Assembly: GCF_000826125.2 (NCBI RefSeq)
Contig: NZ_LN651373.1
Location: 1,344,626 to 1,379,299 of the forward strand
Length of the DNA stretch: 34,674 bases
Reading direction: 5' to 3'
Origin: Bhargavaea cecembensis
GTDB taxonomy: Bacteria > Bacillota > Bacilli > Bacillales_A > Planococcaceae
Position 1 is the stretch's first letter, and every line of letters begins with the position of its first letter. The notes under the pieces are model-generated. The model was given only the letters and a program-made list of their open reading frames with translations, was not told the DNA's origin and ran no database searches. Below, in pieces: positions 10,792-34,660 of this stretch. The position numbers were made by a program, and so were the translations under genes.

Positions 10792-11214
10792 TTATCGCTT
10801 GTTGCGGTTGTTGTCGTCATCGCCTCTGCCATGACGGGCTTCGCCGCCTTTGTGGCCGATCTCTTCGTAGAACTCACGGTCGTGGTTGTCGGAAGTGGCT
10901 TCGCCGCCTTTTTTACCGATCTTCTCGTAGAAATCACGATCGTGGTTCTCGGAAGTAGCTTCGCCGCCCTTTTGTCCGATTTCTTCGTAGAACTCGCGGC
11001 CATGGCTCTCAGCCGTAGCTTCGCCGCCTTTTTGCCCGATTTCTTCGTAGAATTCGCGACCATGGCTTTCCGAAGTAGCTTCGCCGCCCTTCTTCCCGAT
11101 TTCTTCATAGAAATCGCGGTCGTGGGTGCGTGCTGTTTCTTCGCCGCCCATGCGTCCTGCTTCTTCTACTGTCATTTTCTCGTTGTTGTTGTTTTTACGC
11201 TTGTTGTCTGCCAT
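10792..11214 (-). CDS. gsiB: GsiB-like general stress protein
   Basis: 140 residues, close to B. subtilis GsiB (123 residues). After MADNKRKNNNNEK and a first EEAGRMGGEE unit, 20-residue units of the form KGGEATSESHGREFYEEIGQ repeat in tandem; the repeats are also visible in DNA as 60-bp units. The protein is entirely hydrophilic, without signal or membrane segments. GsiB is a classical member of the sigma-B regulon, and a good sigma-B-like promoter stands at 11273-11296. GAGGAGGAATG precedes the ATG. Confidence 0.94.
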   Translation of the reverse strand: MADNKRKNNNNEKMTVEEAGRMGGEETARTHDRDFYEEIGKKGGEATSESHGREFYEEIGQKGGEATAESHGREFYEEIGQKGGEATSENHDRDFYEKIGKKGGEATSDNHDREFYEEIGHKGGEARHGRGDDDNNRNKR

Positions 11215-11272
11215 CTTGCATTCCTCCTCAAAAAGTTTTTGGAAAGAAGCTGTTGCAGCCTCACCCTCTGTA

Positions 11273-11296
11273 TTTCCCCTTCTCTATAAAATAAAC
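11273..11296 (-). promoter_or_regulatory. Sigma-B-type promoter of the GsiB operon
   Basis: On the minus strand GTTTAT (11296-11291) is followed after 12 bp by GGGAAA (11278-11273). The sigma-B consensus is GTTTAA-N12-14-GGGTAT. It lies about 60 bp before the GsiB ATG, and GsiB is a known sigma-B target. Confidence 0.8.
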
Positions 11297-11483
11297 AAAT
11301 GGAGAAGAACCGTAATATTTGTAACAATCGTAACTAGATTGTAATATTCTGTTCATTGTATATATAACAATGGTTCGCGATGTTGTAAACTCTCGGAACA
11401 ATGATATATAGCGTAAAATAATTTATCCCTGTATTAGGAATTTTCGCGGGAAATAAACATAATGTCAACCGCTAGATTCTATA

Positions 11484-11512
11484 TTGATATAGTGATAAAA
11501 TGTTTTTATCCT
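11484..11512 (+). promoter_or_regulatory. Probable promoter of the HELGH gene
   Basis: TTGATA (11484-11489), a 17-bp spacer and TATCCT (11507-11512). Moderate consensus match, about 100 bp before the GTG start. Confidence 0.45.
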
Positions 11513-23311: not shown

Positions 23312-24433
23312 ATGACCGACCAATATTTCTATCATTTCCTGAACCATAAACAGCTCGCGCTCGTGGCGAACGAGCTGGAACAGAGTGTGTATTCGAGTCC
23401 GCGGACGATGCTGACGCATGCGCGCGTGCTCGTTGAATCGGTGCTGAAGCTCGTCATGCGGGAAGAGGGGATTCCCGACGAGCCGTACATGACGCTAAAG
23501 GAGCGGCTGGATGAAGTGGACCGGCAAGGGCTGCTCACCCGAGAAGTGAAAGATGCGCTTGAAGTCATCCGCCGGAGCGGGAACCTGGCCGCCCACGAAA
23601 CGAGAGCGTTCCGCGTGTCCGAGGCGCTCACTTCATGGGAAGCGATTTATACCGTGCTGAAATGGTACGCCGAAGTGTACGGAGATCCGAATTTCACTTT
23701 CCCGGAGTACCGCGACCCGGCGGCGCCGACCCAGCAGGCGTTCGAACTGCCGGAACTGGAAGCCCGGCTCGAGCGGCTGGAATCGCTTCTCCGGCAGCAG
23801 GTCGGCGGGGAAGAAGAGGAGACAGATCCGGCGCAGGAAGAAGCGGCGGCCACCCTCGAAACCGAAGCGCCTGCAGAGCCGCCGGGCTTCACGACCGTAC
23901 GGAAAATCCGATTCAAGGACCAGTCGCTCGACGTGCCGTACTTCCTGCGGGACGCTTTCCTCCTGCCGCAGCGGTTCGAAAAATCTGTCCGGTTCCTCGT
24001 CAAGCTCGGCGGGGAAGAGGAAGCCCGCATCATGAGCGAGCTGCCCGCCGACCTGGACGGCCTGCACCAGTCGGCCTCCCGTTATACCGAAAAGAACGAT
24101 GAGCAGCTGTTCGAGGAACTCGGCGTCTTCATCGAAGAAGAAAAAGCCCGGAGGAAAATCCGCCTTGAGCGGCCGGGCGAGCTGTTCCTTTTCTACAAGG
24201 CGGACTGCGTGACGGTGACCGAGAACCTCGCAAAAGCCGGACTGACGAAAGAGAACTTCCCGTCGCTCACGCCGGGGTTCGTCCGGCAACTCGAGGAGAG
24301 CGGCATCGTGCGTGCAGGCCAGCTGCCGCAGGAACTCGTCATCCTCGCGAAATACAAAAACGTCGGCAACGGCACGATCGAGAAGCTGTTCGATGACTTG
24401 AACGAATGGCAAAAAGCGAAATCCGCTGAGTGA
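23312..24433 (+). CDS. DUF4145-like N-terminal protein
   Basis: 373 residues. The N-terminal part (about 10-105) has the DUF4145 pattern: ARVLVESVLKLVMREEGI, then LKERLDEVDRQGLL and ALEVIRRSGNLAAHETRAF. That domain is common at the front of restriction and defence proteins but also stands alone. A glutamate-rich linker (about 162-195) follows. The C-terminal part is not recognised; near its end SLTPGFVRQLEESGIVRAGQLP and LAKYKNVGNGTIEKLFDDL look like helix-hairpin-helix-type turns, which is inference. TTAAGGAGCC precedes the ATG. The next small genes follow 34 bp later and may share the transcript. Confidence 0.8.
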   Translation: MTDQYFYHFLNHKQLALVANELEQSVYSSPRTMLTHARVLVESVLKLVMREEGIPDEPYMTLKERLDEVDRQGLLTREVKDALEVIRRSGNLAAHETRAFRVSEALTSWEAIYTVLKWYAEVYGDPNFTFPEYRDPAAPTQQAFELPELEARLERLESLLRQQVGGEEEETDPAQEEAAATLETEAPAEPPGFTTVRKIRFKDQSLDVPYFLRDAFLLPQRFEKSVRFLVKLGGEEEARIMSELPADLDGLHQSASRYTEKNDEQLFEELGVFIEEEKARRKIRLERPGELFLFYKADCVTVTENLAKAGLTKENFPSLTPGFVRQLEESGIVRAGQLPQELVILAKYKNVGNGTIEKLFDDLNEWQKAKSAE

Positions 24434-24921: not shown

Positions 24922-25662
24922 ATGAACGAACAATACCCGGTGCTCGAAGGGGCGGAACCATTCTATTTTGAAGGCGGAAAAACCGGCATCCTCATCTCTC
25001 ATGGATTCACCGGAACGACGCAGAGCATGCGTCCGCTCGGCGAAGCCTACGCCGAGGCGGGCTACACGGTGTGCGGACCGAGGCTCGCTGGCCACGGCAC
25101 CCATCCCGAAGACATGGAACGCTCAAGCCGGCATGACTGGATCCGGTCAATCGAAGAAGGCTACGCATGGCTCAAAGAGCGTTGCGACACGATCCTCATG
25201 ACCGGCCTGTCGATGGGCGGCACGCTCACGCTTTACATGGCTGAAAAACACCCGGACATCAAAGCGATCGCCCTCATTAATGCCGCAATCGACATGCCGG
25301 CCATGGAACACGTGCCGGAGTCAATGCGTTTTCTCGATGCGATCGGATCGGATATCAAGAAACCGGGCGTTACCGAACTCGCCTATGACCAGACGCCGGT
25401 TCAGTCGATGAAGGAAATCGTCGCCCTCATGGAAGAAGTGAAACCCGAACTCCGCAAAGTGACCTGCCCGGCGCTCATCTTCGTATCGGACGAAGACCAC
25501 GTCGTCCCGCCGGAAAATGCAGACATCATTCGTAACGGCATCTCCTCGGAAACAAAAGAAATGAGCCGGCTGCACGACAGCTACCACGTCGCCACGCTGG
25601 ACAACGACCAAGAGAAGATCATTAAAGAAACATTGGCGTTCTTCGAGAAGCATCAAAAGTGA
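24922..25662 (+). CDS. Carboxylesterase, Est30-like alpha/beta hydrolase
   Basis: 246 residues from the ATG at 24922 (AAAGGGGACGG site); the frame is open to a TTG at 24904, which would sit inside that ribosome binding site. The length and motifs match the Geobacillus Est30 carboxylesterase group. The catalytic triad is Ser97 in GLSMGG, Asp192 in SDEDHV and His222 in DSYHVAT. The oxyanion-hole segment is SHGFTGT (26-32). It lacks a signal peptide and should hydrolyse small esters or lactones in the cytosol; the physiological substrate is unknown. A hairpin at 25710 ends the gene. Confidence 0.93.
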   Translation: MNEQYPVLEGAEPFYFEGGKTGILISHGFTGTTQSMRPLGEAYAEAGYTVCGPRLAGHGTHPEDMERSSRHDWIRSIEEGYAWLKERCDTILMTGLSMGGTLTLYMAEKHPDIKAIALINAAIDMPAMEHVPESMRFLDAIGSDIKKPGVTELAYDQTPVQSMKEIVALMEEVKPELRKVTCPALIFVSDEDHVVPPENADIIRNGISSETKEMSRLHDSYHVATLDNDQEKIIKETLAFFEKHQK

Positions 25663-25709
25663 GCGGAGAGGCCGTAGTAAACTGAGCTTTAATCAGTGAG
25701 GTGAGGTGA

Positions 25710-25743
25710 GATGATTCCGGTATTGAGCCGGGGTCATCTTTAA
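25710..25743 (+). terminator. Terminator of the esterase gene
   Basis: GATGATTCCGG pairs with CCGGGGTCATC (two G-U pairs in RNA) across a 7-base loop and is followed by TTTAA. The T-run is short. Confidence 0.6.
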
Positions 25744-25789
25744 GTGGTTATTGAGTTATCGTTGTTTTGAAGCTGCAAGGGGGGATGGT

Positions 25790-25969
25790 TTGTTTCGATA
25801 TCTGATTGTCTTTGCAATTGGTTTTTTATTAACGTTTATTCTTGCCGGTGAATTTTTCTCTCAATATAACCTGTTTTTAAATATAATTATCAGGACTGCT
25901 TTTGCTTTGTTCTTCCTATTTATTATTTGGTTACTACAAAAAAACAGAAGAAGATTTCGGCAGGAATAG
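25790..25969 (+). CDS. Small membrane protein, AT-rich gene
   Basis: 59 residues from TTG 25790, which follows AAGGGGGGATGG; an in-frame TTG at 25751 lacks such a site. Two hydrophobic segments (about 2-18 and 27-50) are followed by a basic tail KNRRRFRQE. The gene is clearly more AT-rich than its neighbours, which suggests a separate origin. The family was not recognised. A good terminator begins at the stop codon. Confidence 0.55.
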   Translation: MFRYLIVFAIGFLLTFILAGEFFSQYNLFLNIIIRTAFALFFLFIIWLLQKNRRRFRQE

Positions 25970-26000
25970 CTCCTTGGTTCTTTCAAGGAGCTATTCTTTT
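25965..26000 (+). terminator. Terminator of the small membrane gene
   Basis: AATAGCTCCTTG pairs with CAAGGAGCTATT across a 7-base loop and is followed by CTTTTATTT. The stem includes the stop codon. Confidence 0.9.
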
Positions 26001-26445: not shown

Positions 26446-27003
26446 ATGGGATACATCCTGCTGGTCGTTGCGCTGATCATCATCATCTTCATCGCCGGTG
26501 CGAAAAACACGAAGCTGCGTGACCAACTGAGAAACGACGAACCCGACGCACAACCATCCATGCCCGACGAGGAGCCGACGCATCGGACGATGGAACTCTC
26601 CGTCGCAGGCATCCACGAACGCAATGAAGCCGGGGAAGACATCCAAGAGGTCCTCAGGCGCATCGGCGGTCAATACAAGGACAATCATCACCCGGACACC
26701 GATGAAGATCTTGGATTCAAAGATGTCGTCCGGCTCGTCCCGGACCCGGGCAACCTCGACGACCCCCACTCGATCAAAGTCTTTCTGATGGACACGTCCA
26801 TGAAGTGGCACCACGTCGGCTTCGTGAAAAGGGAAGACAGGCGGAAAGTCGGAAAACTGCTGGAACGCGACAGCATTGACGGCTCCTATGCTCAGATTAC
26901 AGGACACACCCACCGGGGGACCGGATACGATGTGATCACTGAGCAGCGAGGCATCAGTACAACAGAACTGGATAGGGGTTTAAGGGTAATTCTTGTCATC
27001 TAA
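26446..27003 (+). CDS. Membrane-anchored HIRAN-like protein
   Basis: 185 residues. A single N-terminal helix (about 3-18, VVALIIIIFIAG) is followed by a polar linker. A region at about 48-155 resembles the HIRAN domain: SVAGIHERNEAGEDIQEVLRR, then VRLVPDPGNLDDPHSIKVFL, a WHHVGFVKREDRRKVGKLL segment and SYAQITG. HIRAN domains bind DNA ends or stalled forks, usually inside helicases; membrane-tethered versions are less familiar. The last 20 residues change to lower-GC codons just before an AT-rich insert, so the original C-terminus may have been replaced. AAGGAGGTGGAATAA precedes the ATG. HIRAN assignment is moderately sure. Confidence 0.7.
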   Translation: MGYILLVVALIIIIFIAGAKNTKLRDQLRNDEPDAQPSMPDEEPTHRTMELSVAGIHERNEAGEDIQEVLRRIGGQYKDNHHPDTDEDLGFKDVVRLVPDPGNLDDPHSIKVFLMDTSMKWHHVGFVKREDRRKVGKLLERDSIDGSYAQITGHTHRGTGYDVITEQRGISTTELDRGLRVILVI

Positions 27004-27036
27004 AATGCCTGGTTTTATTATCAACCAGGCATTTGA
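27003..27036 (+). terminator. Terminator after the HIRAN-like gene
   Basis: AAATGCCTGGTT pairs perfectly with AACCAGGCATTT across an 8-base loop, starting at the stop codon. The tail (TTGATAG) is only weakly T-rich. Confidence 0.75.
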
Positions 27037-27179
27037 TAGAATTCAAAATCTTTAAAGTCCACGTGAAGGTAAATTAGCAACCAACAGCAACTTCTCTTAC
27101 AAATCTAGTTGCTATGCTAATATATAGTGAAGATCATTTAACACGAAGACGATTACTTCACATTAGGGGTGCTGTAAAA

Positions 27180-29114
27180 GTGATTGTATACGAAGCGACA
27201 AAAGACGAATTTATGGATGATATACTCACCGATAACTTGGTAAATAATATTTGTAAAAATTTTAACGATAAAATTGGGAAAGTCAATGAGGCGGAAATCC
27301 GGTCATGGGATAACTCGATGCAGTACATGTATAAAGTACTAAACGATGAAGAAATCCCTTCAGATGCGGGAGTAGCAATCGAATTTCGAATTCCTTACAC
27401 TTCTAAACGAGTAGATTTTTTAATAGCAGGGAAAAATCAATCTGAGGACACTGTTGTAATTGTGGAACTAAAACAATGGGGAGAAGTTGAGAGAGTAAGC
27501 GGCAAGGAAGCCATCGTAAAAACTTTAATCAATAGGGGGATTCGTGAAACAGCCCACCCATCTTATCAAGCATGGTCTTACGCAGCTTTAATAGAAGATT
27601 ATAACCAGAATGTTCAAGAACAAGAGATTAATTTGAAACCATGTGCATACGTACATAATTATATAAAAAAACAACAAGACGACCAATTAACAGATCCAAT
27701 TTACCAATTTTATATTGATCAAGCCCCTGTTTTCACAAAAGGTGAAGCTCCGAAGTTAAGACAGTTCATAAAAAAATATATCAAATATGGTGATGATAAA
27801 AAGCTTATTTATGAGATTGAGAGAGGAAAAATCAGACCATCAAAGTCATTGCAGGATTCATTAAGCAATATGCTTAAGGGTAATAGGGAGTTTGTGATGA
27901 TTGATGAACAAAAGGTTGTATTTGAGGAGGCAATTTCTCTTGCAAAGAAAGCACTGAGAACAGGCAGAAAGCAGACACTTGTCGTTAGCGGCGGACCAGG
28001 CACCGGTAAATCCGTTTTGGCTATAAACCTTTTGGTTGCAATGACGAAACTGGAGCTTGTTGCCCAATACGTCACTAAAAATTCAGCACCCAGACATGTT
28101 TACTCTACAAAGTTAAAGGGCGATTTTAGAAAGACAAGGATTGATAATTTATTCAAAGGATCAGGTAGTTATACTCAATCAAAAGAGGGAGAGATTGATG
28201 TATTAATTGTTGATGAAGCCCACCGTCTTAATGAGAAGTCTGGAATGTTTCAAAATCTAGGCGAAAACCAGGTGAAAGAGATCATTCATGCCTCCAAGCT
28301 GTCCATATTTTTTATTGATGAAAACCAAAAAGTTACTCTCAAAGACATCGGATCAGTTGAACTTATCAAAAGCTTTGCTACTGAGTTCTCTGCCGATTTA
28401 ACTACGCTAGAATTGTCTTCACAATTTCGCTGTGATGGTTCCGATGCTTATCTTGCCTGGTTGGATGACGTGCTTGGAATTAGAGAAACTGCAAATGACA
28501 ATTACTATGGCCTTGATTACGACTTTCGGGTTTTTGAAAATCCCAATGATTTATTTAAAGAGATACACCGGTTAAATCACCGGACAAATAAATCACGAGT
28601 GGTAGCCGGTTACTGCTGGGATTGGAAAAATAAAAATGATAAAGAGTATAAGGACATTGAGATCCCTGAATTTGATTTTGCTGTAAGTTGGAACTTAGGA
28701 AATACACAAACCTGGGCTATTGACGAGCAGTCCGTTTGGCAAGCCGGGTGTATTCATACATCACAGGGTCTGGAGTTTGAGTATGTCGGCGTAATTATCG
28801 GCGATGACTTACAGTATAAAGATGGAGAAGTCGTTACAGACTTAACAAAAAGGGCAAAGACTGACCAGTCGTTGAGAGGAATCAAAAAAATGCTGAAATC
28901 AGATCCGGAAAAAGCCCAAAAGCTAGCTGATTCGATCATCCGAAATACATACCGCACTCTAATGACTAGAGGACAAAAAGGATGTTTTGTGTTTTGTACT
29001 GACAGAGAACTCAATGAATACTTTAAAGAAAGGTTGGATCGAGCGACTAATTCAAAGGGCAAAGAGATTGAAAAATCACTCCGCGTTGCTGAAAAAGGAA
29101 TAAACTACGAATAA
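27180..29114 (+). CDS. PD-(D/E)XK-like plus DUF2075 ATPase protein
   Basis: 644 residues from GTG 27180 (AGGGGTG site), giving the N-terminus MIVYEATKDEF; an in-frame ATG at 27114 adds 22 residues but has no ribosome binding site. The N-terminal third holds a nuclease-like motif: Glu68 in AIEFRIP, Asp79 in KRVDFLIAG, then Glu96 and Lys98 in VVIVELKQW, a PD-(D/E)XK arrangement. The rest is a DUF2075-type P-loop ATPase: Walker A GGPGTGKS (271-278), Walker B VLIVDEAH (DEAH 345-348), and a helicase-like IHTSQGLEFEYVGVIIG. The gene is strikingly AT-rich against its neighbours, a strong sign of transfer. A role in phage defence or DNA restriction is inference. Confidence 0.88.
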   Translation: MIVYEATKDEFMDDILTDNLVNNICKNFNDKIGKVNEAEIRSWDNSMQYMYKVLNDEEIPSDAGVAIEFRIPYTSKRVDFLIAGKNQSEDTVVIVELKQWGEVERVSGKEAIVKTLINRGIRETAHPSYQAWSYAALIEDYNQNVQEQEINLKPCAYVHNYIKKQQDDQLTDPIYQFYIDQAPVFTKGEAPKLRQFIKKYIKYGDDKKLIYEIERGKIRPSKSLQDSLSNMLKGNREFVMIDEQKVVFEEAISLAKKALRTGRKQTLVVSGGPGTGKSVLAINLLVAMTKLELVAQYVTKNSAPRHVYSTKLKGDFRKTRIDNLFKGSGSYTQSKEGEIDVLIVDEAHRLNEKSGMFQNLGENQVKEIIHASKLSIFFIDENQKVTLKDIGSVELIKSFATEFSADLTTLELSSQFRCDGSDAYLAWLDDVLGIRETANDNYYGLDYDFRVFENPNDLFKEIHRLNHRTNKSRVVAGYCWDWKNKNDKEYKDIEIPEFDFAVSWNLGNTQTWAIDEQSVWQAGCIHTSQGLEFEYVGVIIGDDLQYKDGEVVTDLTKRAKTDQSLRGIKKMLKSDPEKAQKLADSIIRNTYRTLMTRGQKGCFVFCTDRELNEYFKERLDRATNSKGKEIEKSLRVAEKGINYE

Positions 29115-29191
29115 GCTTATAGTATTACAATGGTTATTTCATTTGTTTAATAACAAAGAGTACATTTTCCTCTCGAAATTCATATCTTAAA

Positions 29192-30169
29192 ATGAAAATT
29201 AAGGGAGGGCTTCCGCTGTCCATTTCTGCGTTTTTGCTGGCCATGAGTCCTCTGTATGTGATGGCGGCGGTCGGGTTTGTGGGGAGACGGCTGAATGTTC
29301 TCGGCGGCGGGGCGAATGCGGTGATCACGCAGCTGATGCTTTATATTACCTTGCCGGCGCTGATCCTGTTTTCGCTGGATACGACTTTTACCACCGGGTT
29401 GCTGGGCGATTTTGCCTGGCTCGTGGCCATGTCGGTGTTTGTGCTGGCCTTGTCGGTTTTCACGGCGTCCCGGCTTCGGAGAAGGGCACAGCTTCCCGCC
29501 GGCCAAAAAAGCGTGTATGAGAGCCTGATCGTTTTCGGCAATCAGGGGTTTATTGGATTCGCGGTGAGTTATATCCTGATGGGCGAGCAGGGGATCGTTT
29601 ATCTGACGTTGTTCAACATTTGTTATCTGGTGCTGATCTGGACGTACGGGATCCACTTGTTTACCCGCGATGAGCCGTCGGTGAATTGGCGGGTTTTATT
29701 CCTTAATCCGGGGATTCTCGCTACTGTTGTGGGTGTTATCATGCTCGTTCTTCCGATCGGCTGGCCGGAAATCCTGTCAGCGACTTTTGAGGATGTCGGG
29801 AAGATGACGATCCCGCTGTCGATGATCCTGATCGGCAGTCTGCTCGCGGAGACCCGGATGAGCGACTTGAGGAAATTCAGCCGGAACGTCCACCTGTGGA
29901 TCGCTTCCTCGTTCAAGCTGCTGATCCTGCCGCTGACTCTGCTCATTTTTCTTTTATTCGGGGTGCCGTTTCCGCTGCTCGTCATTGCCGTCTTGACCGC
30001 AGGTATGCCGAGCGCGGCGACAACGACGGTGTATGCGCAGAAGTTCGGCGGGGACGCGGTGTTTGCGTCCTACGGTGTCATCCATTCCACGATTTTCTGC
30101 GTGCTCACGATTCCGCTGCTCTACGGCATTCTTCAGTGGCTGTACGGATGGACGGGGATCTGGGGATGA
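29192..30169 (+). CDS. AEC-family (auxin efflux carrier-like) transporter
   Basis: About 320 residues with eight to ten hydrophobic helices in two groups around a central loop, typical of AEC permeases. Recognisable motifs are MSPLYVMAAVGFVGRRL, ITLPALILFSLDTT, FGNQGFIGFAV, the long TIPLSMILIGSLLAETRM segment and AGMPSAATTTVYAQKFGGD near the C-terminus. Bacterial members move organic acids or similar anions; the substrate is unknown. The start is uncertain: ATG 29192 has no site before it, while AAGGGAGGG at about 29201 would fit a CTG at 29216 or a TTG at 29234. GC-rich composition returns with this gene. Confidence 0.9.
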   Translation: MKIKGGLPLSISAFLLAMSPLYVMAAVGFVGRRLNVLGGGANAVITQLMLYITLPALILFSLDTTFTTGLLGDFAWLVAMSVFVLALSVFTASRLRRRAQLPAGQKSVYESLIVFGNQGFIGFAVSYILMGEQGIVYLTLFNICYLVLIWTYGIHLFTRDEPSVNWRVLFLNPGILATVVGVIMLVLPIGWPEILSATFEDVGKMTIPLSMILIGSLLAETRMSDLRKFSRNVHLWIASSFKLLILPLTLLIFLLFGVPFPLLVIAVLTAGMPSAATTTVYAQKFGGDAVFASYGVIHSTIFCVLTIPLLYGILQWLYGWTGIWG

Positions 30170-30343: not shown

Positions 30344-33300
30344 TTGGTTCAACTCGCGGATCAGGAAAAGGCGATACAGTTTTTCGAGTACTTGCACTCG
30401 TTGAATATGCTGACAGGCAAGATCAAACGGGATTACCGGGAATACGACCGGGTGTGGACCGTGGAGGAGCTGCGGTCCGGCTTCGACTGCCTCGTTGGGG
30501 ATGACTGCACGGCAGCCGGGGCGGTGTTTGAAATCCGCCGTCCGAGGATTTCGGAAGCGGAGCGGATTCCGCCGGTCAGACCGTTCGTGCTGACCGGCTG
30601 GCTGAAAGAAGAGGCTTCCGGACGGAACCCGTTCCCGGGCCGGCTTGAGCGGATGGCCGTCCAGGAAGAGGGCGGAGTGATGCGGTATACCAAGTTTGAT
30701 GAAGACGCGGACCGAGTGAGGGCGTATGACCGGTGGCGGCGCGAGTGGGAGGCCTGGTCGGAAAATCTCCGGAGCAAAGAAACGGCACTCGCGCTTTACG
30801 AGGAGTTCTTTAACCTGCTCACCCGTTTTGAGAACGAGGGGGAGAACCTCGAACTCGTGCTCGGCGAGGGGCTGCTCCTATGGAATCATCCGGATCCGTC
30901 GGTCGGACTGATCCGGACGCCGGTCATGTCGTCGAAGCTCGAATTGGCATTTGATGCGGTGAACGGGGTGATTGCAGCGAAGTCGGTCGAGGATCTGTTC
31001 GTCTTCGAGCAGGAGCCGTTCATGGGGGTGACATTCCCTCATTCCCGGCAGGCCGAGGAGCTCATCGCCTCCATCCCGGAGATCGGCCTGGACGAGCCGT
31101 ATGAAATCCGGCAGTTTCTGAAAGAGTTCGTCCATCTGATCGATGCGAACGGACGGTACTCCGAGGCGGCGGAACCCGGCCGGGCGACAAGTGTGCCGGT
31201 CGTTTATCCGGGAGAGATGTTTTTGCTTCGTTCCAAGCAGTCCCGGGTGATCCGCGATGACCTCACGCAGATCATCAGCGGCGTCCGCAGCGGATCCGTC
31301 GAACTGTCTCCCGCCGTGCTGTCTCTGATCGGCGGGGAAGTGCCGGTGCAGGCGGATCCCGGCACGCGGACGGACGACATTCTTTATTTCCCGCTGCCGT
31401 CCAATGAGCAACAAAAAGACATCGTCGAGCGGATCCGCGGCAACTTCGGCGTGACGATCCAGGGGCCTCCGGGCACGGGGAAGACGCATACGATCGCGAA
31501 CCTCGTATCGCATTTCCTGTCCGAAGGGAAAAAAGTGCTCATCACAAGTCAGAAGGAAAGCCCGCTCCGGGTGCTGAAGGATAAGATTCCGGAAGACATC
31601 CGGGACCTTTGCGTGCCGGTCCTCGGCGGCGGCCGGGAGTCGCTCCAGGACATCGAGGCCTCCACCCGGCTGATCAGCGAGAAGCTGGGCGAGCTCGACC
31701 CTCGTCAGCTGAGGCGCTATGTGGAACGGGACCGCGATGAGCTGATGTCGAGCCGGGAGCGAGAGGAGCGGCTGCTCGGCCGGCTGCAGGGCTACGCCGA
31801 AGCGGAAGGGACGCCCGTCATTTACCGGGGACGGAAGCTGACGAAGGTGGAGACGGCGAAACGGCTCGCTTCCTCTGAAATCGACGCCGGCTGGATTGCC
31901 GATCCGGTCGCGTTCGAAGAAGAGTTTCCGCTCGGCGGGGAGGAGTTTGAAGAGCTGTGGTCGCTGAAAAACCGGATCGGCGGCGAATGGTTCAAGCTGG
32001 CCGGACAGCGGCTGCCGGATCTTCAGGACGATGTGATTTCCTTCGAGCGGCTGAAGTGGCTCCTCAATGACCGGCGCGTTCTGGAACGGGATCAGGAAGA
32101 GGCGAAGCGGGTCATCGAGGCGAACGGATGGCCGGATGATCTGGCGTCTCTCCAGGAATTCGAGGAAGCGGTCCTGCAGGCGGCCGGGAACTTGCAGTCG
32201 GTTGATCTGGACCGTTTCCGGGTCCTCATCAGCGACCTGCGAGCCGGCGGTGTGAGGGAACAGCGCTGGCTCGACTGGATGGCGAAGATCGAAGAGATGA
32301 ATGCCGTACTGGCGTCGCTCTATGCGGACCTTGCGAATCACCGGCTGGCCCCGCCGCCGTTTCCGGTGAGCGAAGTCCGGCAGCACCTCGATGTTCTGGC
32401 GGATGAACTGAAATCCGGCGGGGAGCCGGGTTTCCTGTTTTGGCTCGGGAAGGGCAGGAAGGCCAAGTATTTGTATCAGCACGACTGGCTGGACGGGCAC
32501 CCTGTCCGCTCGGCGGCGGATATCGATGTGTTCCGGAAGTTTGTGGATTACCAGGAGCTGCGAAACACGCTGCGCCGGATTTATAATTCTCCTTCCGGGG
32601 AGTCCGGTCTTCCGGAGATCGAAGCGGATGCCCGGCGCTTCCCTTATGAGATGGACGAGCACATCGCGCTGTTCAAGAAAGTGCATGCGCTCGTGCGGGA
32701 GATCGAGCTGCTGAAGGCATCCCCGCTCGCCGGCCGGCTCGACCGGGAGAAGTTCTACGATGCGGCATGGCTGGAGGGGGAACTGCTTCCCGCTGTCCGC
32801 CTTGCCAAGCGGGTCCCGGAATACGGAGATTGGCAGGACAGCCTGCGTTCACTCGTTGACGGACTGAAGGAGAAGAATGATGGGGAGGACGTCCATCCGA
32901 TTGCCGGCCGGCTGATCGATGCGGTCGGTGCGCTGGATGAGGAACGGTTTTACGGACTTGTCGCAGAGTTGAAGGAGCTCGTTTCCCGGCGCGATGAAGC
33001 ATTGAAGCTCCAGGAACTGCTTCGGCAATTGTCGGAAAGCATGCCGAAGACTGCCGGGCGGCTGGAGGGCCGGCTCGGTGTTGAGGATGCTTTTCCGGAA
33101 GATTATCTTGACGCGTTCGAATGGAAGAAATTGAAGACGTGGGTCGACGAATCGAAGGGAATGGACACGACGGTCGTGCGCGGCCAGATCGCCGGGGAAC
33201 AGGCCGAACAGGCGCGGCTGATCAACCAGATCGTGAAGAACGCCACGTGGGCGAACCTCCTCGAAAATATTACGGAGCGGGAGAAGAACGCCCTGTCCGC

Positions 33301-34660
33301 CTGGAAATCGTCGATCAAGAGGTACGGCAAAGGGACCGGCCGCCATGCCCGGTATTACCTGAAGACGGCGCGCGAGAACATGAAGGTCGCGCAGACCGCG
33401 ATTCCAGTCTGGATCATGCCGATCAACCAGGTGCTCGAGAACTTCCCGGCAGCGAACGAGAAGTTTGACGTCATCATCTTCGACGAAAGCAGCCAGTGCG
33501 ACATCTTTTCGACGAACGTCCTTCTCCGCGGCAAAAAAGCGATTGTCGTCGGCGACGAGGAACAGATCAGCCCGCAGGCGATCGGCATCCGGTTCGATGA
33601 CGTCCGGGAACTTTCCCGGCGCTATCTGAAAGGCGTGCCGAACGCGGCCTTGCTTGACGGCAACACTTCTCTCTATGAACTGGCGGAGCAGACCTTCCCG
33701 AAAGGCGGGAAGCTCATGCTGCGAGAGCATTTCCGTTCCGTGAAGGAGATCATCGAGTTCTCAAACAGGCTCAGCTACGACGGGGAAATGGTCCCGATGC
33801 GCGTGCCGCTTGAAAACGAGAAGTTCGACCGGCCGGTGGTCGCCGTAAAAGTGGCGGACGGCCGCAATGATGAACTCGACAAAGACGTGAACGTTCCGGA
33901 AGCGGACCGGATCGTCGAAGACATCGTACGGATGATCCGCGATCCCAGGTATGACAACCAGACATTCGGCGTCATTTCCCTGCAGGGACAAAAACAGCAC
34001 CGGCTGCTCGAAACGAAGATCCGAAATGCCATCGGCGACGATGAATTCGTCCGGCGGCGGATGATCTGCGGAAGCCCGTACACGCTCCAGGGCGACGAGC
34101 GGGACATCATCTTCCTCTCGATGGTCGTCGCGCCCGGCCGCCGGTTCCGCGCCCTCACCGGCTCCGCGGACAAGCAGCGCTTCAACGTCGCGGCCAGCCG
34201 CGCGAAAAACCAGATGCGCCTGTACCATTCCGTCGACCCCGAAGACTTGAGCATCGACGACCTCCGGTACCGGCTGCTCAGCTACTGCCGCCAAACGGAG
34301 ATCGAACACGAACGGGTGCCGGATCCCGAAGGACTGTGCGAATCGGAATTCGAGCGCGACGTCCTCCGGGTGATCCGGGAGAGGGGCTACGCCGTCAAAC
34401 CAAAAGTCCGCGTCGGCAAATTCCTCATCGACTTCGTCATCGAAGGAGCGAAAGACCGGCTCGCCGTGGAATGCGAAGGCGACAAATGGCAAGGCCCGGA
34501 ACGCTTCCTCAGCGACCTCTACCGGCGCCAATCCCTCGAACGCGTCGGCTGGGAATTCTGGCAGATCCGCGGCAGTGATTTTTACTTTGACCAAGAAACC
34601 GCAATGCAACCGCTCTGGCAGAAGTTGGAGGAGCGGGGGATTGAACGGGAGAGTGAATAG
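30344..34660 (+). CDS. Large SF1 helicase with C-terminal DUF559/Vsr-like nuclease
   Basis: 1438 residues, start TTG 30344 after AAAGGCGG. The first 350 residues are not recognised. A superfamily 1 helicase of the Upf1/Dna2-like type is split by a long, mostly helical insert: motif I GPPGTGKT (374-381), then motif II DESSQ (1047-1051), the LREHFRSVKEIIEFSN segment and the C-terminal RMICGSPYTLQGDERDIIFLS and RFNVAASRAKNQM. The last about 110 residues resemble the DUF559/Vsr endonuclease fold: CESEFERDVLRVI, Asp1363 in FLIDFVI and Glu1376 in AVECEGDKW, then RRQSLERVGWEFWQIR. Similar helicase-Vsr proteins with other N-termini are reported in phage defence. Composition is chromosomal. Confidence 0.9.
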   Translation: MVQLADQEKAIQFFEYLHSLNMLTGKIKRDYREYDRVWTVEELRSGFDCLVGDDCTAAGAVFEIRRPRISEAERIPPVRPFVLTGWLKEEASGRNPFPGRLERMAVQEEGGVMRYTKFDEDADRVRAYDRWRREWEAWSENLRSKETALALYEEFFNLLTRFENEGENLELVLGEGLLLWNHPDPSVGLIRTPVMSSKLELAFDAVNGVIAAKSVEDLFVFEQEPFMGVTFPHSRQAEELIASIPEIGLDEPYEIRQFLKEFVHLIDANGRYSEAAEPGRATSVPVVYPGEMFLLRSKQSRVIRDDLTQIISGVRSGSVELSPAVLSLIGGEVPVQADPGTRTDDILYFPLPSNEQQKDIVERIRGNFGVTIQGPPGTGKTHTIANLVSHFLSEGKKVLITSQKESPLRVLKDKIPEDIRDLCVPVLGGGRESLQDIEASTRLISEKLGELDPRQLRRYVERDRDELMSSREREERLLGRLQGYAEAEGTPVIYRGRKLTKVETAKRLASSEIDAGWIADPVAFEEEFPLGGEEFEELWSLKNRIGGEWFKLAGQRLPDLQDDVISFERLKWLLNDRRVLERDQEEAKRVIEANGWPDDLASLQEFEEAVLQAAGNLQSVDLDRFRVLISDLRAGGVREQRWLDWMAKIEEMNAVLASLYADLANHRLAPPPFPVSEVRQHLDVLADELKSGGEPGFLFWLGKGRKAKYLYQHDWLDGHPVRSAADIDVFRKFVDYQELRNTLRRIYNSPSGESGLPEIEADARRFPYEMDEHIALFKKVHALVREIELLKASPLAGRLDREKFYDAAWLEGELLPAVRLAKRVPEYGDWQDSLRSLVDGLKEKNDGEDVHPIAGRLIDAVGALDEERFYGLVAELKELVSRRDEALKLQELLRQLSESMPKTAGRLEGRLGVEDAFPEDYLDAFEWKKLKTWVDESKGMDTTVVRGQIAGEQAEQARLINQIVKNATWANLLENITEREKNALSAWKSSIKRYGKGTGRHARYYLKTARENMKVAQTAIPVWIMPINQVLENFPAANEKFDVIIFDESSQCDIFSTNVLLRGKKAIVVGDEEQISPQAIGIRFDDVRELSRRYLKGVPNAALLDGNTSLYELAEQTFPKGGKLMLREHFRSVKEIIEFSNRLSYDGEMVPMRVPLENEKFDRPVVAVKVADGRNDELDKDVNVPEADRIVEDIVRMIRDPRYDNQTFGVISLQGQKQHRLLETKIRNAIGDDEFVRRRMICGSPYTLQGDERDIIFLSMVVAPGRRFRALTGSADKQRFNVAASRAKNQMRLYHSVDPEDLSIDDLRYRLLSYCRQTEIEHERVPDPEGLCESEFERDVLRVIRERGYAVKPKVRVGKFLIDFVIEGAKDRLAVECEGDKWQGPERFLSDLYRRQSLERVGWEFWQIRGSDFYFDQETAMQPLWQKLEERGIERESE

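Follow-up and report, generated by a model that had tools for sequence, protein, structure and literature searches.

The 34,674-nucleotide stretch of Bhargavaea cecembensis DNA analysed here (contig NZ_LN651373.1, positions 1,344,626 to 1,379,299; hereafter the window) contains, on its forward strand at 27180–29114, a gene that joins a predicted PD-(D/E)XK-like nuclease domain to a Schlafen-type superfamily 1 (SF1) helicase. It is a well-conserved gene of foreign composition in a variable hotspot, most likely an anti-phage gene, from a family poorly covered by the defence catalogue used (PADLOC). We read the product as a probable anti-phage nuclease-helicase that acts as a single protein and is inherited patchily; in this reading the defensive role, the enzyme activities, the substrate and the trigger are inferred. 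An earlier note, made from the sequence alone, had described the gene as an AT-rich insert uniting a nuclease motif and an NTPase, with the profile of a mobile defence gene.

The union of both motifs in one gene is confirmed, as the nuclease motif residues and the Pfam family PF09848 (E = 1.7e-101) lie in a single open reading frame. In its longest form this frame spans 27114–29114 and encodes 666 residues. The motif [ILV][ILV]Y occurs near the start of 82 of 86 relatives' proteins, and within the first four residues in 53 of them; this common start position makes the GTG at 27180, and thus a length of 644 residues, most likely. Residues 264–608 (27969–29003) clearly form a Schlafen-group-3 SF1 helicase domain. 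The PF09848 match covers 286–630 of the 666-residue form and positions 1–354 of the 354-position profile, scoring 340.5 bits against a cut-off of 24. The family is now named “Schlafen group 3, DNA/RNA helicase domain”, and the DUF2075 label given earlier was right. The Walker A motif GGPGTGKS occupies residues 271–278 (27990–28013), its lysine being K277 and not Lys278 as first numbered, and the Walker B motif (motif II), DEAH, occupies residues 345–348 (28212–28223). Conservation was judged on an alignment of 58 rows, the window protein plus 57 relatives at 55–76% identity. These were sampled by thinning the 79 of 86 proteins with 600–700 residues to 61 below 88% identity, four of which (L033, L054, L062 and L074) were left out. 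K277, E346 and H348 are invariant in this alignment, and D345 and A347 nearly so. A full-length model built from it (pLDDT 83.7) matched UvrD (Z = 21.4, rmsd 3.8, 299 residues aligned) and SLFN14 (Z = 19.4, rmsd 3.6, 275 aligned), with SLFN11 (Z = 17.2–19.7), HelD and RecD2 in the same set within Z 17–21. The two top SLFN11 rows (Z = 19.7) have an rmsd near 18 because two domains were matched together. By sequence, a search of the PDB with the window protein returned only RecD (E = 0.28), and a PHROG search gave weak matches only, mostly to P-loop families.

The N-terminal region, residues 1–237 (27180–27890), was predicted and searched separately, because the full-model fold search hardly probed the nuclease half. 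Its model is a mixed alpha/beta domain (pLDDT 88.7). The residues that the earlier note had named, E68 (27381–27383), D79 (27414–27416), E96 (27465–27467) and K98 (27471–27473), are correct in the 644-residue numbering and, like the Walker A lysine, invariant across the 58 rows. In the model the acidic residues and E96-L-K98 lie on adjacent strands (64–68, 77–86 and 89–98). The best structural match is Can2 (Z = 6.8, rmsd 3.4, 127 aligned), followed by Cdn1, VC1899, Kpn2I and EndoMS (Z = 5.3–6.8) and by Cap4 and Shedu (down to Z = 4.5), all of which we take to hold PD-(D/E)XK domains; the top 18 of the 50 structural rows presumably belong to such proteins. The invariant motif together with a consistent, sub-threshold fold in the model thus suggests a nuclease. 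The nuclease fold proposed earlier therefore gains an invariant motif and weak PD-(D/E)XK-like matches, and falls short of a significant fold match.

The gene is the only one in a stretch of about 2.2 kb (about 27035–29190) with 37–38% G+C, compared with 57.5% in the remaining window. Between 27001 and 29000, the four windows of 500 bp range from 0.352 to 0.398 in G+C; the next-lowest elsewhere are 0.410 (11001–11500) and 0.414 (25501–26000), and all others lie between 0.476 and 0.664. In 2-kb windows the minimum is 0.3715 (at 27201), while the 571 such windows clear of the stretch do not fall below 0.4725. At third codon positions, G+C is 0.343 in the nuclease-helicase gene versus 0.655–0.786 in eight further genes of the window for which it was measured. 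Scanned in 200-bp steps, G+C changes sharply, from 0.53–0.55 to 0.33–0.35 at ~27000 and back to 0.56 at ~29200, which bears out the drop at the end of the upstream HIRAN-like gene and the return at the downstream transporter gene that had been described. A perfect 12-bp inverted repeat with an 8-bp loop (27003–27034) lies directly behind the HIRAN-like gene; it is perhaps the terminator of that gene and coincides with the upstream boundary of the AT-rich stretch. This hairpin is absent from the list of the terminator scan, and promoter and terminator scans of the window did no better than on shuffled sequence. In line with the earlier note, no notable repeat pair flanks the stretch, the edge search finding short chance-like matches besides the hairpin, and a Pfam scan of six window proteins found no integrase. 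A tRNA search of the window found none.

The gene is present in three of eight Bhargavaea genomes (the window's genome, G000, and seven others); a fourth holds only a distant relative at 28%. Within the window's order, 54 of 261 genomes, from 14 of 19 genera, hold it (E ≤ 1e-100), all listed rows coming from the window's own family; in a phylum sample it occurs in 10 of 398 genomes (E ≤ 1e-60, the window's genome counted). The foreign composition that had been claimed is upheld, and the gene's presence is patchy. In B. ginsengi the gene lies between a DoxX-like gene and an rRNA operon leader, the 16S gene beginning at the contig end, and in four relatives (G001, G002, G005 and G007) the same two flanks are 64–87 bp apart, versus 2.3 kb with the gene; the DoxX-side match in G002 spans only 162 bp. 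The B. massiliensis copy occupies the same site as that of B. ginsengi and the same gene neighbourhood as the window. The window copy, too, is found in this interval, bounded by the esterase and transporter genes (both present in all eight genomes), but it adjoins the HIRAN-like gene, of which the seven other genomes show nothing beyond a 32-bp match in one. For this reason, a recent insertion could not be demonstrated at the junction in the window. An empty site in relatives, which the earlier note suggested looking for, exists at the B. ginsengi and B. massiliensis position and not for the junction in the window. Elsewhere in this region, G002 carries a type I restriction system and an Mrr-type nuclease between the 5S rRNA and the transporter gene, and G003 a large ProA/Hhe-like helicase near the esterase and transporter genes. 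These differing contents point to a variable hotspot, partly hidden by contig breaks. A 16S rRNA gene search of the window's assembly found none, where B. ginsengi has an rRNA operon after the gene; the operons may be missing from the assembly, masked or lost. In B. massiliensis (L107, 797–1047) an Rfam match to BsrG, which we take to be a type I toxin-antitoxin RNA family, lies upstream of the transporter gene.

The three Bhargavaea copies form one clade with a support of 100. The other two each share 76% with the window copy, as against 62–74% for five neighbouring genes and 44% for a sixth, small one. Judged from these sequences, the acquisition is not recent, given the single genus clade and a divergence about as in the chromosomal neighbours, and a recent insert is not supported, the B. 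massiliensis copy also sharing the neighbourhood of the window.

Beyond the order, one pattern scan of GTDB genome contigs confirmed 201 relatives, from Bacillota to Methanobrevibacter and Ignatzschineria, of which 80 were kept. Matches were also found in 39 plasmid records, 21 of them with a coverage of 80% or more, and in 4 phage records, 3 of them with such coverage. Among the plasmid matches listed (30 of 39), eight have identities of 38–55% and the other long ones 25–29%; the best phage match is from a Microcystis phage (52%), the others being at 25–27%. All plasmid and phage relatives with at least 80% coverage fall below 60% identity, and no DNA-level match was found in E. coli genomes. 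A tree of 81 rows (75 of the 86 locus proteins, the window protein and five plasmid or phage proteins) was built quickly and has some long branches; it omits L004 and L005–L009, together with L041, L051, L073, L078 and L084, which are short or split. In it, archaeal, Bacteroidota, Actinomycetota and Pseudomonadota records are intermixed with Bacillota, although individual records, for example those named Arthrobacter or Chryseobacterium inside Bacillaceae, are possibly misnamed or contaminated. The sister rows of the Bhargavaea clade are Bacillaceae and other Bacillota, presumably low in G+C.

Defence genes are comparatively frequent around these relatives. At E ≤ 1e-15, 110 proteins near the gene matched 158 PADLOC models and 110 distal ones (>5.5 kb) matched 40, a relative enrichment to be read as a trend and not as a count of systems, because the distal set has matches of its own, models of the same family overlap, and it was models that were counted. 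The two sets are random samples of 149 near and 122 distal proteins of 120–1000 residues, with pyrophosphatases excluded. The near proteins match Gabija GajB, type III and type IV restriction, DRT3b, SIR2, HEC-06 and phage-defence candidates, with one or two proteins each. On a Priestia plasmid, a relative (38%) lies amid genes for a DUF3578 protein, a restriction endonuclease, a type I restriction-modification system and an ABC-three-component system. A tandem pair of DUF2075 genes (L157, 7098–8987) adjoins a restriction system on a Hymenobacter plasmid, and 7 of 78 loci (e.g., L075, 9997–12801) encode a protein with PLD, SF2-helicase and DUF3427 parts at a distance of 53–1988 bp from the nuclease-helicase gene. 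Taken together, the spread across phyla, the plasmids, a phage and the nearby defence genes sustain the mobile-defence profile, although not a recent arrival.

Among known systems, the nearest tested one in kind is Nhi (SERP2475, PDLC02372), a single-gene nuclease-helicase that, according to one account, is thought to be activated on detecting the phage single-stranded DNA-binding protein (PMC12904381). Like Nhi, the window protein would unite a nuclease and a helicase in one polypeptide, here by motif, profile and model, and the helicase parts are related (PADLOC E = 3.4e-11). The Nhi model, however, has 470 positions compared with 644 residues in the window protein, and the better of two stretches (198–329) aligns to 277–439 of the 666-residue form, within the helicase; two relatives (L018 and L086) match it in a single stretch, 198–332. 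Nhi-like proteins are listed with a NERD nuclease domain in a 2023 review (PMC10952713), and Pfam found no NERD match in the window protein. Membership in Nhi was rejected for profile coverage and score, as the model is not matched over its full length with the nuclease part included. Our best reading is that the protein would work like Nhi without being Nhi by sequence.

PDC-S41 (PDLC05014) differs in that its best stretch covers the nuclease and runs into the beginning of the helicase, 25–325 of the 666-residue form against 5–276 of 657 model positions. The match is weak (E = 5.1e-12, 42.9 bits; 1.7e-16 for L018) compared with 9e-147 for a protein near one relative (neighbour set A4), and membership was rejected for want of a strong full-length match. 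By sequence, PDC-S41 is a sister family; a literature search for this name found nothing. AbiO (PDLC02350) has a related helicase (E = 2.8e-12), its best stretch being 259–439 of the 666-residue form, again the helicase, with two further stretches. Human SLFN11 and SLFN14 share the motor family (PF09848) by profile and fold, but carry what we take to be a Schlafen RNase, in contrast to the PD-(D/E)XK-type motif of the window protein. The family therefore offers a prokaryotic setting in which a Schlafen motor appears fused to a different nuclease.

The most interesting lead from the relatives, although not directly applicable to the window copy, is a recurrent partner gene. Of 78 loci, 30 encode a dCTPP1/MazG-like pyrophosphatase of ~110 residues no more than 214 bp away from the nuclease-helicase gene. 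The partner precedes that gene in 18 loci and follows it in 8; in the other 4, all of the Macrococcus type, it lies upstream but points in the opposite direction. An all-reading-frame profile search found no further copies in the flanking sequence analysed, which reached up to 8 kb on each side. The value of 1e-24 obtained for 30 of 30 near placements assumes that related loci are independent and is not a true probability. The linked partners resemble human DCTPP1 (RS21-C6) and small MazG-like enzymes; they match PF12643, and solved relatives in the PDB include dCTP pyrophosphatase 1 (E = 4.7e-16 for the partner in L089). In L043, L035, L032 and L021 a PRA-PH-like gene takes the partner's place downstream (the two tested fall just under the Pfam cut-off), for which one change suffices on the tree, and NUDIX genes occur in 9 of 78 loci, 2 within 500 bp and seven farther away. 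Five of the 34 plasmid and phage records listed (30 of 39 plasmid, 4 phage) were opened. The MazG-like gene lies directly upstream on the haloarchaeal Halalkalicoccus plasmid, the Priestia plasmid and the Microcystis phage; none is annotated in the Methanosphaera and Hymenobacter records, whose nearest small proteins match no Pfam family. In a 27% relative the pair even overlaps, by a few bases. In the phylum sample they stand side by side in 5 of 10 gene-bearing genomes (four within 30 bp, one at ~500 bp), and the pyrophosphatase is present in 6 of 10 genomes with the gene versus 21 of 388 without it (Fisher p = 1e-5). The upstream arrangement requires at least 4 changes on well-supported branches, so it was remade several times and not simply inherited.

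The pair is not fixed, however, as 48 of the 78 loci have no MazG-like gene nearby. The gene has no adjacent pyrophosphatase in the window, where no profile match was found, or in any of the 54 gene-bearing genomes of the order, their places being compared by eye. Presence anywhere in the genome is unrelated to the gene there (14 of 54 with it versus 50 of 207 without, Fisher p = 0.86; MazG-like proteins at E ≤ 1e-22, a search that left aside weaker ones and the PRA-PH and NUDIX kinds). The only MazG-like copy in the window's genome (contig C2, 75842–76147) is syntenic in all eight Bhargavaea genomes, gene-bearing or not. An obligatory partnership was therefore rejected for the window's order, and the window gene must work alone or with a house-keeping pyrophosphatase.

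For the wider family, the nuclease-helicase and the pyrophosphatase may cooperate. By its title, one study places human DCTPP1 in 5-methyl-dCTP metabolism (PMC4491611). On our reading, a DCTPP1 relative might remove protective modified nucleotides. MazG domains are named as predicted, unvalidated defence parts in the available portion of another paper, which does not mention a nuclease-helicase/pyrophosphatase pair (PMC13092281). Our literature searches for such a pair leave an earlier printed mention possible, a 2015 survey of nucleotide systems and the original Nhi paper lying outside their scope. It is possible, if doubtful, that the family and the pyrophosphatase make up a two-part immune module in both bacteria and archaea, which would destroy phage DNA during its replication and remove the (perhaps base-modified) deoxynucleoside triphosphates able to repair or shield it. 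Its partner slot would have been joined anew on one side or the other and taken by different pyrophosphatase families (dCTPP1/MazG-like, PRA-PH-like and possibly NUDIX), the window copy being a derived stand-alone form that lacks a partner or uses the chromosomal copy. The recurrent partner offers a handle on whether nucleotide destruction and DNA cutting act jointly in phage immunity.

In the proposed mechanism, the C-terminal SF1/Schlafen-type motor would load on single-stranded or end-containing DNA, as in phage replication, and translocate on it using ATP, while the N-terminal PD-(D/E)XK-like domain, as a metal-dependent nuclease, would cut the DNA fed by the motor. In many lineages the adjoining dCTPP1/MazG-like pyrophosphatase may in addition destroy deoxynucleotides, ordinary or base-modified, needed to rebuild or protect phage DNA. 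In Bhargavaea, the gene stands alone and a homologous pyrophosphatase is encoded elsewhere on the chromosome.

Several results weigh against a defensive nuclease-helicase. The PADLOC matches of the window protein are weak, and the best stretches of Nhi and AbiO lie in the helicase. Foldseek returned nothing at E ≤ 0.001 for the N-terminal model, whose fold support is not significant alone (best Z = 6.8). The distal control set has defence matches too (BREX, Zorya, Abi), which leaves the enrichment near the relatives a relative one, and the immediate neighbours in the window (the HIRAN-like and transporter genes) are without defence signs. Finally, an identity of 50–58% across domains of life is high for a defence gene. 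This strong conservation over archaea and bacteria would suit an accessory enzyme of DNA repair or fork restart, a Dna2-like nuclease-helicase spread horizontally and not for defence. Dna2 appears at ranks 4, 5 and 13 of the full-model Foldseek rows, with RecD2 and UvrD also present, and the linked pyrophosphatases (MazG-like, PRA-PH-like, NUDIX) are of the house-cleaning type. We consider this role rather unlikely, as the gene is patchy in genus and order, occurs on plasmids and in a phage record, and lies in relatively defence-rich neighbourhoods; among the 45 commonest neighbour clusters of 78 loci, no repair gene was recognised by eye.

Defence could also take the form of a toxic effector, acting by abortive infection or directed at RNA, in which the Schlafen-type motor would sense infection and the nuclease cut host DNA or RNA, so that the cell dies. 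SLFN11 and SLFN14, presumably antiviral RNases, are among the closest motor folds, and Can2 and Cdn1 with bound cA4, which we take to be type III CRISPR effectors, are among the best nuclease rows. The well-fitted overlap with SLFN11 and SLFN14 is confined to the motor part (model 234–610), however, and the Pfam scan found no sensor or cyclic-nucleotide domain, making such an effector improbable. A different doubt concerns origin, since the gene may have long resided in the genus and been lost from most species, its low G+C having another cause than foreign origin. The single clade, the chromosome-like divergence and the syntenic surroundings of the B. massiliensis copy agree with this; on the other side, all three copies are AT-rich (0.378–0.405) in surroundings of 0.499–0.575, four relatives have the empty site, and the clade's sisters in the tree come from Bacillaceae and other Bacillota, presumably low in G+C. 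We regard long residence with such loss as unlikely, and prefer an anti-phage nuclease-helicase of foreign composition. The family is common (54 of 261 order genomes; 201 relatives), yet no 2023 PADLOC model covers it well, and the papers retrieved for DUF2075 or COG3410, by titles and abstract starts, apparently do not treat it as defence.

The flanking genes lie on the same strand. Upstream, the HIRAN-like protein (26446–27003) is a weak call (PF08797, E = 0.0023, under the curated cut-off) and has no PADLOC match; downstream, an AEC-type membrane transporter (29192–30169) matches PF03547 (E = 1.9e-29). Farther downstream, 30344–34660 encodes a 1438-residue SF1 helicase with a C-terminal MTES_1575 endonuclease, akin to the anti-phage ProA and Hhe under their cut-offs and matching PDC-S37 (E = 6.5e-58). 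Its homologue in G003 lies on the opposite side, between the esterase gene and the rRNA leader. A DUF4145 protein (23312–24433), whose gene is found in all eight Bhargavaea genomes, matches the phage-defence candidate PDC-M16A in its N-terminal part (E = 1.7e-17). The sole Rfam match in the window is an FMN riboswitch at 573–707, unrelated to the nuclease-helicase gene.

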